Source: Myxococcaceae bacterium (GTDB lineage: Bacteria > Myxococcota > Myxococcia > Myxococcales > Myxococcaceae). Taken from it: 64,000 bases of DNA. The translations under genes were made by a program, and so were the position numbers. Shown here in pieces: positions 6,319 through 13,293 of the stretch. The notes beneath the pieces are model-generated. The model saw only the letters and a program-made list of their open reading frames with translations. It had not been told where the DNA came from and made no database searches. Numbering within the stretch: position 1 is the stretch's first letter; each line of letters opens with the position of its first letter. The stretch spans positions 1-64,000 of the forward strand of contig JAEUJQ010000090.1 of the NCBI GenBank assembly GCA_016793095.1, written 5' to 3'.

Positions 6319-7695
6319 TCAACGTTCGGCGAAGCGCGCCGAGAAGTGCCGCAGCGCGCGCGGCTGCTCGACGATGCGCAGGCCCTTGAGCGTCTTCGCC
6401 TGCTTCGCGACCCGCTCCACCACCTCGATGACGAAGTCGATGTGGCTCTGCGTGTAGGTGCGGCGCGGGATCGCCAGGCGCACCAGGTCCATCGCCGCCG
6501 GCTTCTCGGTGCCGTCGGGCGAGAGGCCGAACATCACCGTGCCGATCTCACAGCTGCGCACGCCGCCCTCCCGGTACAGCGCGATGGCGAGGGCCTGGCC
6601 CGGGTACTGGAGCGGCTCCACGTGCGGCAGCAGCGCGCGCGCGTCGAGGTAGACCGCGTGGCCGCCGATGGGCACGACGATGGGAATGCCGGCCTTCTGC
6701 AGCGCCTCGCCGAGGTACTCCGTCGAGCGCACGCGGTAGCGCAGGTAGTCGTGCTGCACGACCTCGGTCAGTCCCTGCGCGATGGCGTCGAGGTCTCTGC
6801 CGGCGAGGCCTCCGTAGGTCGGGAAGCCCTCGGTGAGGATGAGCAGGTTGCGAGCCTTGAGCGCCCACTCGTCGTCGTCGAGCGCGAGCCAGCCCCCGAT
6901 GTTGGCCATGCCGTCCTTCTTCGCCGACATCGTCATGCCGTCTGCGACCGCGGCCATGTCTCGAACGATGTCCACCACGTCACGGTGGCTCTGCCCCGGC
7001 TCGCGCTGGCGGATGAACCAGGCGTTCTCAGCGAAGCGGCAGGCGTCGAGGAACAGGGGCACGCGGTGCCGGTCGCACACCGCGCGGACGGCGCGCAGGT
7101 TCTCGAGGCTCACCGGCTGCCCGCCGCCCGAGTTGTTGGTGACCGTCACCAGCACGAGCGGCACCTGCTCCCGGCCATGCTCGGTGATGAGCCGGTCGAG
7201 CGCGTCAGTGTCGAGGTTGCCTTTGAACGGGTGCGGCACCGATGGCTGACGCCCCGCCGGGTAGAGCAGGTCGACCCCCGCCGCGCCGCTCGCCTCGACG
7301 TTCGCGCGGGTGGTGTCGAAGAGCGTGTTCGCCGGCACCACCTTGCCCTTCCCGCCCACGGCCGAGAACAGGATCTTCTCGGCGGCGCGGCCCTGGTGCG
7401 TGGGGATGACGTGCTTGAAGTCGAACAGGTGCTTCACCGCCGCTTCGAAGCGGAAGTATGACGGCGAGCCCGCGTACGACTCGTCGCCCCGCTGAATCGC
7501 GGCCCACTGCTCAGCTGACATGGCCCCGGTGCCCGAGTCGGTGAGCAGGTCGATGAGCACGTCCGTCGAGTGCAGGCCGAAGAGGTTGAGGCCGACCTCC
7601 TGGAGCCTCGCTTCCCGCTCCTCGCGCGTCGTCAGACGCAGCGGCTCGACGGACTTGATGCGGAAGGGCTCGATGATGGTGTGGAAGTCGTGCAC
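6319..7695 (-). CDS. tnaA: Tryptophanase (tryptophan indole-lyase)
   Basis: A 458-residue PLP enzyme of the beta-eliminating lyase family, predicted to split L-tryptophan into indole, pyruvate and ammonia in the cytoplasm. Family motifs are clear: EPFRIKSVEP near the start, LIDLLTDSGTGAMS at 48-60, PTHQGRAAE, the PLP-lysine motif MSAKKDG with the Schiff-base lysine likely K260, and EGFPTYGGLAGRD. Tyrosine phenol-lyase is the close alternative. The segment VRSCEIG matches tryptophanase, where phenol-lyase has MERG (the substrate-binding Arg), and LRHFSARF has the tryptophanase-type His (H450) where phenol-lyase has Phe. No tnaC leader peptide or tnaB permease is visible, so regulation differs from enterobacteria or is not local. 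Confidence 0.88.
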   Translation of the reverse strand: MHDFHTIIEPFRIKSVEPLRLTTREEREARLQEVGLNLFGLHSTDVLIDLLTDSGTGAMSAEQWAAIQRGDESYAGSPSYFRFEAAVKHLFDFKHVIPTHQGRAAEKILFSAVGGKGKVVPANTLFDTTRANVEASGAAGVDLLYPAGRQPSVPHPFKGNLDTDALDRLITEHGREQVPLVLVTVTNNSGGGQPVSLENLRAVRAVCDRHRVPLFLDACRFAENAWFIRQREPGQSHRDVVDIVRDMAAVADGMTMSAKKDGMANIGGWLALDDDEWALKARNLLILTEGFPTYGGLAGRDLDAIAQGLTEVVQHDYLRYRVRSTEYLGEALQKAGIPIVVPIGGHAVYLDARALLPHVEPLQYPGQALAIALYREGGVRSCEIGTVMFGLSPDGTEKPAAMDLVRLAIPRRTYTQSHIDFVIEVVERVAKQAKTLKGLRIVEQPRALRHFSARFAER

Positions 7696-9275: not shown

Positions 9276-11144
9276 GTGAGCCAGGAGCGTCCCGACGCGT
9301 TGCTCAAGAGCGCGCTCGAGAAGATCGTCTACTTCGAAGCGCGGGCAGCGCAGCTGACGAACGACCTCGACACGGCCAACGCCGAGCGCGCGCGGCTGCG
9401 GGGAGAGCTGGGGCACGCGTCGCAGCGGGAGCTCGAGCTGCGCCGGGTCATCGCCGAGCTCGAGGTTCGCTCGACGCGCGCGCACCAGGAACGGGAAGAG
9501 GCGGCGACGGTGGCCGAGGCGCTGCGCCGCGAGCGCGCCGAGCTGCTCGGGAAGATCCTCGAGGCCTCACGCCTCAACACCGACGGGCACGACCCGTTCG
9601 ACCTCGCCTCGTTCATCGCCGAGCTGCGCAGCGAGGTGCTGTTGCGGCGCGAGCGCGACCAGGGCGGCGCGACGCCGGTGCTCGTGAACGTGACCAGCGC
9701 TTCCGCCGCGACGCCCGCGGGCCTGACTTCCGGCGGCACCTCTCGTGGAGTCGGTCAGACGTCAACCTCGCCAACGCCGCCGACCGCCGAGCCGGCGCCG
9801 TCGCATGTGACGAAGACGGCCGAGGCGCTCGAGGCGCAGGGCCGGCTCACGGTGTCGAAGGAGGACCTCGCCTCGCTCGAGCGCGCGTTCCCCTTCGCGG
9901 GCCGCTCCGAGGAGACGCTGTTCGGCTTCTCGGTGCGCGAGCTCTCTGCCCCCGACGCCGCAGCGCGCGCGCGCGCTGCTGAACGCCTCACCGCGCTCGC
10001 CCACCCGGCCGCCGCGCCCGCGCTCGCGACCGCGCTCCACGCCGAGCGCGAGGCGTCGGTCAAGGTGGCGCTCCTGACGGCGCTGTCGGCGCTCGCGAAG
10101 GTCGAAGCGGTGCCGGTGGTGCTGCCACAGCTCTCGTCGGCCTCCCCCGAGGTGCGCATCGCGGCGTTGAAGGCGCTGCTCAAGCTGGACCCCGCGCAGG
10201 CCGGTCCGCACCTGGCCGCTGCCGTGAAGGACCCGGACTCCGCGGTGCGCCGCCGCGCCTCGCTGCTCGCGCTCGGCCTCCGCGGCACCGCGGCGCTCGA
10301 GCTGGGTGAGACGGCGATTCGTGACGAGAACGCCGACGTGCGCTCACTCGCGGCGCTGGTGCTGGGCGCGAGCGGGCTCGAGTCGGCGCGCCCGTGGCTG
10401 ATGCAGGCGATGCGCGACCCGGAGCTGCGCGTGCGGCGCTCGGCCAGCCAGGCGATGTCGCGGCTGCTCGGTCAAGACGTGAGCCAGCTCGTCGAGCTCG
10501 ACGAGGCGCAACGCCGCCGTGAGGTGCGCCGCCTCGCCCAGGTGCCCGCGAACCCCGTGAAGGCGAAGCTGGTCGCCGCGCTGCCGCAGCCGCCGCTTCC
10601 CCCACAGGCGGCCGTGGAGAGAGCGCACGCGGCCACCACGGTCAGCGCCGCGCCCGCCCTTCATCGCCTCGCGCCCATCGCGCCTCCGCAGTCCACCACC
10701 AGCGTCGGCGCCGCGGCGGCCGCACGCGCGACCGGCACCGGTGTTCCCACGCAGAGCACCACCGGCGTCGGTCCAGGGCCAGGCGCTCCGTCGCTCGTCC
10801 CGGCGACCGCCCCGCAGCTCCAGACGACCGGAGGCCAGACCAGCCCGGCCGACCTGCAGCCCCTGCGAGCGGCGCAGCGGACCTTTCCAGCAGTGGCTGC
10901 GGTTGCCGCAGTCTCGCAGACGTCCCGCGTGGCGGTGGCGGTCGTCGAAGAGACGGCGAGGTCGCCTGATCCGGTCGTGCTGTCGGGCGTGCTGGTCGAG
11001 CTGCGCGCCGCCATTCGCGGTCAACCGGCCGACGCGCTCGCCTCGGCGCTCTCGACCTCGCTCGAGTCCGTTCGCGCAGCGTGCGCGGCCCTCATGGAGC
11101 AGGGCCAGATCGTCCGCCGCGGCCACAAGTACTTCGTCGCCTGA
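9276..11144 (+). CDS. pomY: PomY: coiled-coil/HEAT-repeat cell division positioning protein
   Basis: Cytoplasmic protein of 622 residues from the GTG at 9276, or 638 from an upstream TTG at 9228; the GTG is preferred because it begins directly at the conserved-looking SQERPDALLKSALEKIV. Order: N-terminal coiled coil (about residues 10-110, Glu/Arg/Leu heptads), Ser/Thr/Pro-rich linker, HEAT-type helical repeats (about 215-410), Pro/Ala/Thr-rich disordered region (about 430-560), and a C-terminal winged-helix-like end (ELRAAIRGQPADALASAL through RRGHKYFVA). This architecture and the following ParA and coiled-coil genes match PomY of Myxococcus xanthus, which binds PomX and PomZ and recruits FtsZ at midcell. 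First gene of the pomYZX operon; pomZ follows after 14 nt. Confidence 0.85.
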   Translation: MSQERPDALLKSALEKIVYFEARAAQLTNDLDTANAERARLRGELGHASQRELELRRVIAELEVRSTRAHQEREEAATVAEALRRERAELLGKILEASRLNTDGHDPFDLASFIAELRSEVLLRRERDQGGATPVLVNVTSASAATPAGLTSGGTSRGVGQTSTSPTPPTAEPAPSHVTKTAEALEAQGRLTVSKEDLASLERAFPFAGRSEETLFGFSVRELSAPDAAARARAAERLTALAHPAAAPALATALHAEREASVKVALLTALSALAKVEAVPVVLPQLSSASPEVRIAALKALLKLDPAQAGPHLAAAVKDPDSAVRRRASLLALGLRGTAALELGETAIRDENADVRSLAALVLGASGLESARPWLMQAMRDPELRVRRSASQAMSRLLGQDVSQLVELDEAQRRREVRRLAQVPANPVKAKLVAALPQPPLPPQAAVERAHAATTVSAAPALHRLAPIAPPQSTTSVGAAAAARATGTGVPTQSTTGVGPGPGAPSLVPATAPQLQTTGGQTSPADLQPLRAAQRTFPAVAAVAAVSQTSRVAVAVVEETARSPDPVVLSGVLVELRAAIRGQPADALASALSTSLESVRAACAALMEQGQIVRRGHKYFVA

Positions 11145-11158
11145 GGAACCCAACGCGC

Positions 11159-12118
11159 ATGGAAACGCCCTCCTACACTCCGAAGCAGGCCGCCGAGCTG
11201 CTGGGCATCACGCCGAAGACGCTGAAGGCGTCCCTCGACAAGGACACGTTCTCGCCTGAAGAGGTGTGGGACCTGCGGGCCAAGCTGAACCTGTACCCGG
11301 CCGAGGTCGGCACGCGGAAGCAGCTCTTCCTCAACTTCAAGGGCGGGACCGGCAAGACGTCGCTGTCCACCTCGTACGCGTGGCGCCTGGCCGAGATGGG
11401 CTACGGCGTGCTGCTCGTCGACCTCGACAGCCAGGGCCACGCCACCAAGTGCCTCGGCTTCGAGGGCGAGGACTTTCAGCACACGCTGCTCAACGTGCTG
11501 GTGAAGAAGGCGCCCATCAGCCAGGTGATTCAGAAGTCCCAGCTGCCGAACCTCGAGTTCATTCCGTCGAACCTCTCGATGTCCACGGTGGACCTCGCGC
11601 TGATGCCGATGGCCGGTCGCGAGTTCAAGCTGAAGAACGCGCTCAAGGAAGTCGAGGCGCACTACGACTTCATCATCTTCGACGCGCCGCCCTCGTTCGG
11701 GCTGCTCAACCTCAACGCGCTGATGGCCGCTGACGACCTCATCGTGCCGGTGCTGGCCGACTTCCTCTCATTCCACGGCCTCAAGCTGCTCTTCGAGACG
11801 GTGCAGAGCCTCGAGGAGGACCTCGGCCACGTGCTCGACCACGTCTTCATCGTGGTGAACGCCTTCAACGCGACCTTCAAGCTGGCGAAGGAAGCGCTCG
11901 AGGCGCTCAAGACGCACTACCCCGAGTTCCTGCTGCCGCAGGTGGTGCGCCAGTGCACGCGCTTCGCGCAGGCGTCGAGCGAGGGCATGCCCATCTTCGC
12001 GTTCGACCGCGACTCGAAGGGCGCTGGTGACGTGCAGGCGCTCATCGACGAGGTCATCGGGCGGCTGCAGAAGAGCGCGAAGGTGGCGCCCGCCGTGGAA
12101 GCGAAGAAGTCGGCCTGA
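11159..12118 (+). CDS. pomZ: PomZ: ParA/MinD-type ATPase for division-site placement
   Basis: A 319-residue ParA-family ATPase. An N-terminal MerR-like helix-turn-helix region (TPKQAAELLGITPKTLKASL) precedes the deviant Walker A KGGTGKTS at 61-68, the Walker A' segment VLLVDLDSQG with D90, and FIIFDAPPS (Walker B). G62, D90 and a basic residue at 268 occupy the positions at which Myxococcus PomZ mutants affecting nucleotide binding, ATP hydrolysis and DNA binding were made (here R268 rather than K268). In that system ATP-bound PomZ dimers bind nucleoid DNA and tether and move the PomXY cluster to midcell, where it stimulates FtsZ ring formation. GAGG lies upstream of the start; pomX follows 23 nt later. 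Confidence 0.92.
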   Translation: METPSYTPKQAAELLGITPKTLKASLDKDTFSPEEVWDLRAKLNLYPAEVGTRKQLFLNFKGGTGKTSLSTSYAWRLAEMGYGVLLVDLDSQGHATKCLGFEGEDFQHTLLNVLVKKAPISQVIQKSQLPNLEFIPSNLSMSTVDLALMPMAGREFKLKNALKEVEAHYDFIIFDAPPSFGLLNLNALMAADDLIVPVLADFLSFHGLKLLFETVQSLEEDLGHVLDHVFIVVNAFNATFKLAKEALEALKTHYPEFLLPQVVRQCTRFAQASSEGMPIFAFDRDSKGAGDVQALIDEVIGRLQKSAKVAPAVEAKKSA

Positions 12119-12141
12119 CGGAGTTCCTGGAGGACACACGC

Positions 12142-13293
12142 ATGAAGAAGGCATTCGACGCCAACGTCTCGCGAGCCCGCCCGAAGCTGCGGCTGGGGGC
12201 CATGTTGGCCACGTCCGAGGCACCGTCGCTCTCGCAGGAGACGGTGGAGTCGCTCGCGCAGGCCGTCGCGCAGGAGCCCGTCATTCCCTCGCGGGAGGAG
12301 CCCCTCGAGCTCTCCCAGGCGGTGAAGGCGAAGCTGACCGCGCGGGCGTTCAAGCCGACCGCGGCCGAGGTGCTGACGTCGGCGCTCCAGACGGAGGCGC
12401 CCGTCGAGGTGGCCGCGCGGGCCCACGCCAGCGCCGCGGTGGTGGAGCTCGCCGCGCCCGTCACGCCGGTCGAGCGCGCCGCCGTGGTGGAGCAGGAGGC
12501 GCCGGCCGCCGCACAGCACACTCGGGAGATCAGCATGGCGCAGCCGAAGGTCGTGACGCAGGCGGTGAAGGCCGCGGTCGAGGCGCCCGCCGAGGTGCGC
12601 GAGGTGCAGACGGCGCCGGTGGAGGCGCCGCAGCCGGACTCAGGGGAGCGGCGCGAGAAGCTGCGCGAGCGCCTCAAGGCCGTGCGCGAGAACCCCCGCC
12701 CCGAGCCGCTGCCTGAGACGGTCGCCGAGGCCGGCGTGCTGGCGGTGGAGCGCATCGCCGCGCTGCAGACCGAGCTCGCGAAGACGCGCGCGATGAACCT
12801 CGCGCTCTCGCAGGACCTCGAGGCGGCGCGGCGCCAGGCCGAGCGCGCGACGGAGGAGGCGCGGCTGCGCATGGACGAGGCGCGGCGGCTGTCGGCCGAG
12901 ATGGAGGGCCGGGTGCAGCTGCTGTCGGACCTCGAGAAGGAGCTCGCGGCGCTGGAAGGCGAGCGCAACGAGGCGCTGCTCGCGCTGCAGGAGTCCCGGC
13001 AGGCCATCGAGGCCGGCGAGCGCGAGAAGCACGAGCTGCGCGAGGCCGTCACCTCGAAGGACCAGGAGCTCGAGGCGTCGTTGCAGGAAGAGGAGCGGCT
13101 CGCCGGTGAGCTCGAGGCCGCGCACGAGGCGATGGCCGGGCTGCGGCGGTCGGCCGACGCGCTGAAGAGCGAGCGCGACACGCTGGCGCGGCAGGTGGCG
13201 GACCTCACGAAGGAGCGGGCCGAGCTGCTCGAGGCCCGCAAGGCGCTCGAGGCGGTGCACCGGGCGCTCGCGAAGGCGTCGGCGCTGGCGTGA
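12142..13293 (+). CDS. pomX: PomX: coiled-coil scaffold and PomZ ATPase activator
   Basis: A 383-residue cytoplasmic protein with a GGAGG site before the ATG. Residues 1-21 (MKKAFDANVSRARPKLRLGAM) are strongly basic and match the PomX N-terminal peptide that stimulates PomZ ATPase. The two basic residues important in Myxococcus (K13, R15) appear here as R13 and K15. Residues 30-180 are Ala/Glu/Pro/Val-rich and probably disordered. Residues about 200-380 are one long coiled coil rich in Glu, Arg, Leu and Ala, which drives PomX filament formation in the known system. Length is close to the Myxococcus protein (about 400). The stop lies 1 nt from the stop of a convergent membrane-protein gene. 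Confidence 0.9.
   Translation: MKKAFDANVSRARPKLRLGAMLATSEAPSLSQETVESLAQAVAQEPVIPSREEPLELSQAVKAKLTARAFKPTAAEVLTSALQTEAPVEVAARAHASAAVVELAAPVTPVERAAVVEQEAPAAAQHTREISMAQPKVVTQAVKAAVEAPAEVREVQTAPVEAPQPDSGERREKLRERLKAVRENPRPEPLPETVAEAGVLAVERIAALQTELAKTRAMNLALSQDLEAARRQAERATEEARLRMDEARRLSAEMEGRVQLLSDLEKELAALEGERNEALLALQESRQAIEAGEREKHELREAVTSKDQELEASLQEEERLAGELEAAHEAMAGLRRSADALKSERDTLARQVADLTKERAELLEARKALEAVHRALAKASALA

Follow-up and report, generated by a model that had tools for sequence, protein, structure and literature searches.

A pomY–pomZ–pomX locus of the Myxococcaceae whose PomY carries a candidate PomZ-contacting motif beside its winged-helix domain

In Myxococcus xanthus, PomX and PomY activate the ATPase PomZ and place FtsZ (PMC7993993, PMC13170346, PMC10307791). 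The way in which PomY acts on PomZ in M. xanthus is a question on which comparison with related loci bears. According to PMC13170346, the activity of PomY on PomZ maps to residues 496–682, and helix alpha5 (residues 584–592), which is without the basic residue typical of other activators, is proposed to dock on the PomZ dimer. The locus described here lies in a stretch of 64,000 nucleotides from a Myxococcaceae bacterium, referred to below as the window. It raises two questions: whether its three genes encode a Pom system, and through which of its parts PomY would contact PomZ.

The working of such a system is known from the M. xanthus literature and is carried over here by orthology. PomX would form a single scaffold in each cell, polymerising via its C-terminal coiled coil; PomY would condense on this scaffold and recruit FtsZ; and ATP-bound PomZ dimers would tether the PomX/PomY assembly to the nucleoid. 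Two elements would make PomZ hydrolyse ATP, the basic peptide at the PomX N-terminus and the C-terminal part of PomY, and this would move the assembly to midcell.

Identity of the locus

The earlier note had described a complete pomY–pomZ–pomX locus with a HEAT/coiled-coil protein as its first product and a 319-residue ParA-type ATPase as its second. Both the locus and the two products proved to be as described. The three genes are adjoining and stop-free (Table 1), and stand in the M. xanthus order (locus L060). The GTG start of pomY aligns with the start of the M. xanthus protein; the frame itself opens upstream, at TTG 9228. When the products were aligned with those of M. xanthus, identity over aligned residues was 72% for PomZ (231/319, against strain AM003, L060), 56% for PomX and 49% for PomY. 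Relatives keep the same three genes in the same order, with PomZ identities of up to 94%, and the trio is therefore not a chance assembly. A beta-eliminating lyase gene (PF01212), tryptophanase-like by our own reading, lies at 6319–7695 on the minus strand of the window.

Table 1. Features of the pom locus, with positions in the window
Feature	Position	Strand	Remarks
pomY	9276..11144	+	622 aa; 303/616 aligned residues identical to M. xanthus PomY
PomY N-terminal coiled-coil helix, aa 6–101	9291..9578	+	AlphaFold2, full PomY
PomY HEAT repeats, aa 210–421	9903..10538	+	Pfam HEAT_2/HEAT (HEAT_2 E 9.1e-19); AlphaFold2
PomY linker, predicted disordered, aa 454–560	10635..10955	+	no alpha5 predicted or matched
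Motif SRVAVAVVEE, aa 550–559, candidate PomZ-contacting short linear motif	10923..10952	+	
PomY C-terminal winged helix-turn-helix (gD), aa 566–621	10971..11138	+	purpose-made HMM; AlphaFold2; Foldseek 4wcg, TMt 0.88
pomZ	11159..12118	+	319 aa ParA/MinD ATPase, from ATG 11159
PomZ deviant Walker A, K61–T67 (KGGTGKT)	11339..11359	+	includes G62, K66
PomZ D90	11426..11428	+	Asp of hydrolysis mutant D90A in M. xanthus (PMC13170346)
PomZ Arg268	11960..11962	+	Lys268, DNA binding, in M. xanthus (PMC13170346)
pomX	12142..13293	+	383 aa, from ATG 12142; 208/373 aligned residues identical to M. xanthus PomX
PomX N-terminal activating peptide, aa 1–22	12142..12207	+	R13 at 12178–12180, K15 at 12184–12186
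PomX C-terminal coiled-coil-like region, aa 203–378	12748..13275	+	weak SMC coiled-coil match only; close alignment with M. xanthus PomX C-terminal domain

The genome to which the window belongs comprises 93 contigs with a total of 8.8 Mb. Among named relatives, the nearest are metagenome-assembled genomes labelled Myxococcus sp., Myxococcaceae, Myxococcales or Archangiaceae; same-genus relatives being of this kind, the organism appears to be uncultured. The genome encodes one FtsZ, while a search of this one genome for MinC and MinE gave no match (control genomes did give matches).

PomZ is a member of the ParA/MinD family and its Pfam and NCBIfam matches are to generic ParA only, as would also be expected if the trio were a chromosome-segregation or other ParA system. 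That it is one is scarcely conceivable. When M. xanthus PomZ was searched in the window's genome, the pomZ of the window was the best match (74%) and the next genes reached 31–32%; the match is reciprocal, and the closest sequences are PomZ rather than the chromosomal ParA of this genome. The genome has a chromosomal parA–parB pair elsewhere, with a parB-like gene adjoining the ParA (L002) on contig C3, and no parB was found beside pomZ at the locus. Gene order, the PomX peptide and the architecture of PomY all fit Pom, as do G62, K66 and D90 of PomZ and the presence of FtsZ without MinC and MinE; that architecture consists of a coiled coil, HEAT repeats, a disordered linker and a winged helix. 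The locus is thus very probably an orthologous PomX/PomY/PomZ system for positioning the division site. Orthology, anatomy and conservation are established here, and from orthology the system would be expected to work like that of M. xanthus.

For comparison, PomZ was searched across the order; 130 of 145 genomes gave a match at E ≤ 1e-90, and 129 of these together with the window form the comparison set. PomZ is also present in families f3, f4 and f6–f9 of the order, mostly with a PomX-like peptide. One full Myxococcus-type pom locus is in BNCN01000008.1 (L065), titled Comamonas sp. KCTC 72670, a title which looks mislabelled. Elsewhere in the window's genome, on contig C11, a gene for another ParA-family ATPase (L003:1498–2280, plus strand) faces one for a PHB/PHA accumulation regulator (PF07879; L003:2283–2885, minus strand), and this ATPase possibly positions storage granules.

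The PomX peptide and PomZ residues

The third gene had been noted to begin like PomX, and its product does match the N-terminus of M. xanthus PomX: MKKAFDANVSRARPKLRLGAM in the window (R13/K15) against MKKAFEQNVSRAKPRLRLGAL in M. xanthus AM003, L060 (K13/R15). In M. xanthus, loss of K13 and R15 breaks the PomX–PomZ contact (PMC7993993). A peptide could be called in 123 of the 130 loci and not in the other seven. F5, N8 and P14 are invariant in all 123. Position 13 is Lys in 90 and Arg in 33; position 15 is Arg in 116 and Lys in seven; both are basic in every peptide.

Six genomes have the R13/K15 pair: one belongs to family f3, and the other five are among the six genomes of the window's genus. 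The remaining same-genus genome, G002, has R13/R15, as do 27 of the 123 peptides, from 16 genera; because of this a stepwise route from K/R through R/R to R/K is a simple one. The exchange had been put forward as a natural test of how flexible the PomX–PomZ contact is. The exchange itself is real, but it is a mild one. A true charge swap in the contact was rejected, both sites being basic throughout and K and R both being common at position 13. To judge from these peptides, the two mild K/R substitutions indicate K/R tolerance and little more. An apparent second PomX in G022 was likewise rejected; it is a single pomX split at a contig end.

Residue counts for PomZ cover 123 orthologues, after two proteins shorter than 250 aa and five 'edge' loci, whose PomY end was truncated or masked, were excluded from the 130. 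G62, K66 and D90 are present in all 123; G62 and D90 had been said to align with the M. xanthus residues, and they do. Residue 268 is Lys in 107, Arg in 14 and Gln in two. The Arg268 of the window, reported earlier, was confirmed as a basic, candidate DNA-binding residue, but it is a trait of the whole clade. That it is peculiar to the window's genome was rejected, since sister genera share it: 13 of the 14 carriers are Myxococcaceae of the window's clade that bear the PomY motif described below, and they make up 13 of the 16 PomZ of motif-bearing Myxococcaceae. Arg stands at the equivalent position in ParA (L002) of the window's genome, too.

The window's system thus resembles that of M. xanthus in gene order, activating peptide, HEAT repeats, gD winged helix and PomZ catalytic residues, and differs from it in PomX R13/K15 for K13/R15, in PomZ Arg268 for Lys and Phe282 for Ala, and in a PomY that is without alpha5 and has SRVAVAVVEE ahead of gD.

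Helix alpha5 and the PomZ cleft

The AlphaFold2 model of full-length PomY, built on 21 full-length orthologues, has a long N-terminal helix, helical repeats as far as residue 421, a disordered stretch and a C-terminal winged helix, with the extents given in Table 1; this winged helix was recovered when the last 106 residues were modelled separately. Foldseek matches of gD include the Z-alpha domain of cyprinid herpesvirus ORF112 (TM 0.88 by target), MepR and an O-methyltransferase of Burkholderia thailandensis; with so short a model no match passes E 0.001. The same structural matches are given for M. xanthus gD in PMC13170346.

Neither sequence matching nor the AlphaFold2 model found alpha5 in the PomY of the window, a feature that the earlier note had passed over. 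Its counterpart in L060 reads VQAALVAMG. The 130 PomY loci fall into 51 with alpha5, 32 with the motif, 37 with neither, five without gD and five that are cut or masked ('edge'), in classes made by a script that assigns alpha5 first and with a motif pattern written after the sequences had been seen. Of the 120 loci in which the PomY C-terminus could be called and includes gD, 51 have alpha5, and on these sequences it is lineage-specific. The alpha5 logo in PMC13170346 was drawn from nine orthologues, all of them alpha5-containing; for this reason alpha5 is not treated here as defining for PomXYZ. The second position of alpha5 is Gln in 43 of the 51 loci and Arg in eight (L117, L119, L120, L122, L124, L230, L234 and L239), which have VRAALAVMG or similar. 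With Arg at the equivalent of Gln585 in these eight, alpha5 does not always go without a basic residue.

Six of the eight PomZ residues that line the proposed alpha5 cleft are identical in all 123 orthologues; Asp221 is found in 122, and Ala147 varies. Most of these residues are different in the two nearer ParA paralogues of the window's genome. Yet 72 of the 123 PomZ come from alpha5-less loci, and the pocket is unchanged there. Conservation of the pocket consequently supports alpha5 weakly, and the PomZ-specific cleft is conserved for something independent of this helix.

A conserved motif ahead of the winged helix

In the window, SRVAVAVVEE lies six residues ahead of the first gD helix, and a motif R-x-A-V-A-V-[LV]-E is found in 32 of the 130 PomY loci, in two families. 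It may resemble the contact segment of MinE. No report of this motif was found among the titles and abstract openings searched, or in the main-text parts of PMC13170346 (its supplement aside). In the second family, f5 (Anaeromyxobacter and relatives), 15 of 18 callable PomY have it before gD. The f5 systems differ from that of the window in Pro rather than Ser at PomX position 10, in a PomZ about 60% identical, and in Lys268 in all 14 aligned motif-bearing f5 PomZ.

A position weight matrix of 11 columns was trained on 16 Myxococcaceae sequences, and each linker was scored with it alongside its own shuffled versions. Scores above the shuffles at p<0.05 were reached in 15 of 17 f5 sequences, one of which (L167) has its best match off the motif; these 17 are from 19 genomes, one sequence being too short and one masked, and they were held out from training only, the motif having been seen in both families beforehand and related genomes being non-independent. 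It matched none of 43 sequences of Myxococcus/Corallococcus type, none of 20 from six further genera and one of the 23 that remain. Among alpha5-bearing loci there were no matches in 51. An open scan for the exact core found one in 49 alpha5 linkers (L197), 176 residues from gD, in a part of PomY that seems to lie within the stretch reported as dispensable in PMC13170346. It is on the matrix and the open scan that mutual exclusivity of motif and alpha5 rests, since the class script assigns alpha5 first. The suggestion that the two are one diverged element found no support: over the 15 commonest offsets the motif matrix falls in register on alpha5 in two of 51 linkers, and the alpha5 matrix on the motif in five of 31, all f5.

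Linkers of this kind are low in complexity and the motif-sharing genera are related within each family, so that the motif might have arisen by chance in Ala/Val-rich linkers and be shared through common ancestry. This is very improbable. Exact core matches number 15 of 17 and 5 of 13 against about 0.1 expected from shuffles, in sets picked with a related pattern. Apart from L197, exact [VI]AV[LVI]E matches start 10–19 residues before the linker end, at gD, a position that was not scanned for. In a 32-row MAFFT alignment of the window and the motif-bearing loci most rows are in register, and the core V, A and V are each at least 90% conserved. Between genera, codon positions 1, 2 and 3 of the core are identical in 84, 89 and 50% of cases; the core is therefore conserved at the protein level, with third positions diverged and the neighbouring linker unalignable.

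What the motif does is a matter of several readings. In ParA/ParB and MinD/MinE, a short Arg-bearing peptide triggers ATP hydrolysis by the ParA/MinD ATPase (PMC13170346); the PomY motif is likened to these peptides by description, not by sequence homology. It is tentatively possible that the C-terminal region of PomY contacts PomZ through SRVAVAVVEE, which with its conserved Arg would be a second candidate contact beside alpha5. In the window's lineage, whose PomY is without alpha5, this Arg-led segment next to the winged helix would then be the part that meets PomZ. An about equally tentative reading gives the motif a different partner in place of PomZ, which could be FtsZ, PomX or, with the motif acting as a condensate sticker, PomY itself. 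The motif is hydrophobic, and in M. xanthus the PomY C-terminal region has a role in the initiation of division as well (PMC13170346), both of which suit such a partner; the conserved Arg, in contrast, recalls the activators of ParA/MinD ATPases, a basic residue lying within four positions before the core in 29 of 32 sequences.

Rather doubtful is the idea that the motif adds a strand or cap to the gD winged helix and owes its conservation to folding, not to PomZ binding. Its alternating V and A make it beta-prone, and it ends merely −1 to 16 residues before the start of the gD HMM match. Neither AlphaFold2 model, however, gives it a strand or helix, and it is modelled with less confidence than gD, which stands at about 96: the blocks that surround it average 69 and 81 in the 106-residue model, and values in the full-length model are below 50. 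Moreover, gD of the M. xanthus type occurs without the motif.

To return to PomZ contact, a stronger form of it is unlikely as matters stand, namely that PomY has in R-x-AVAV-[LV]-E another kind of PomZ-activating element, bearing the Arg that alpha5 of M. xanthus lacks. Were this so, PomY would be a classical Arg-peptide activator in the window's lineage and in Anaeromyxobacter, and the 'non-canonical' activation of M. xanthus would be derived, alpha5 having taken over the same PomZ pocket. Neither motif nor alpha5 can be essential to every PomY, because 37 loci have neither and five have no gD.

On a quick PomZ tree of 81 rows, with SH-aLRT as its only support measure and 24 of its 75 inner branches open, the carriers of the motif are the window's clade, the earliest-branching sampled genus of the Myxococcaceae (g12; a weak form, matrix p 0.11) and f5, and alpha5 is confined to the Myxococcus side. 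This fits an ancestral motif that was lost where alpha5 arose, and leaves room for repeated gain of the motif as an alternative history. PomZ residue 282 (12002–12004) is Phe or Tyr in 14 of 16 motif-bearing Myxococcaceae and in none of 70 others. Coevolution of this site with the motif was considered and is unsupported, as only four independent pairs lie on well-supported branches and 1.2 of them agree on average; in a tree-based test no PomZ site was seen to follow the motif beyond shared descent.

Five loci of genus g38 in family f7 (L146, L152, L159, L164 and L170) have a PomY that stops at the start of pomZ and gives no match to the gD HMM. Two further genomes of this genus, L149 and L155, retain gD. 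All five gD-less loci keep the PomX activating peptide. Since the activity of PomY depends on gD in M. xanthus, PomX may be left as the sole activator of PomZ in these genomes, and the five are natural tests of the need for PomY activation.
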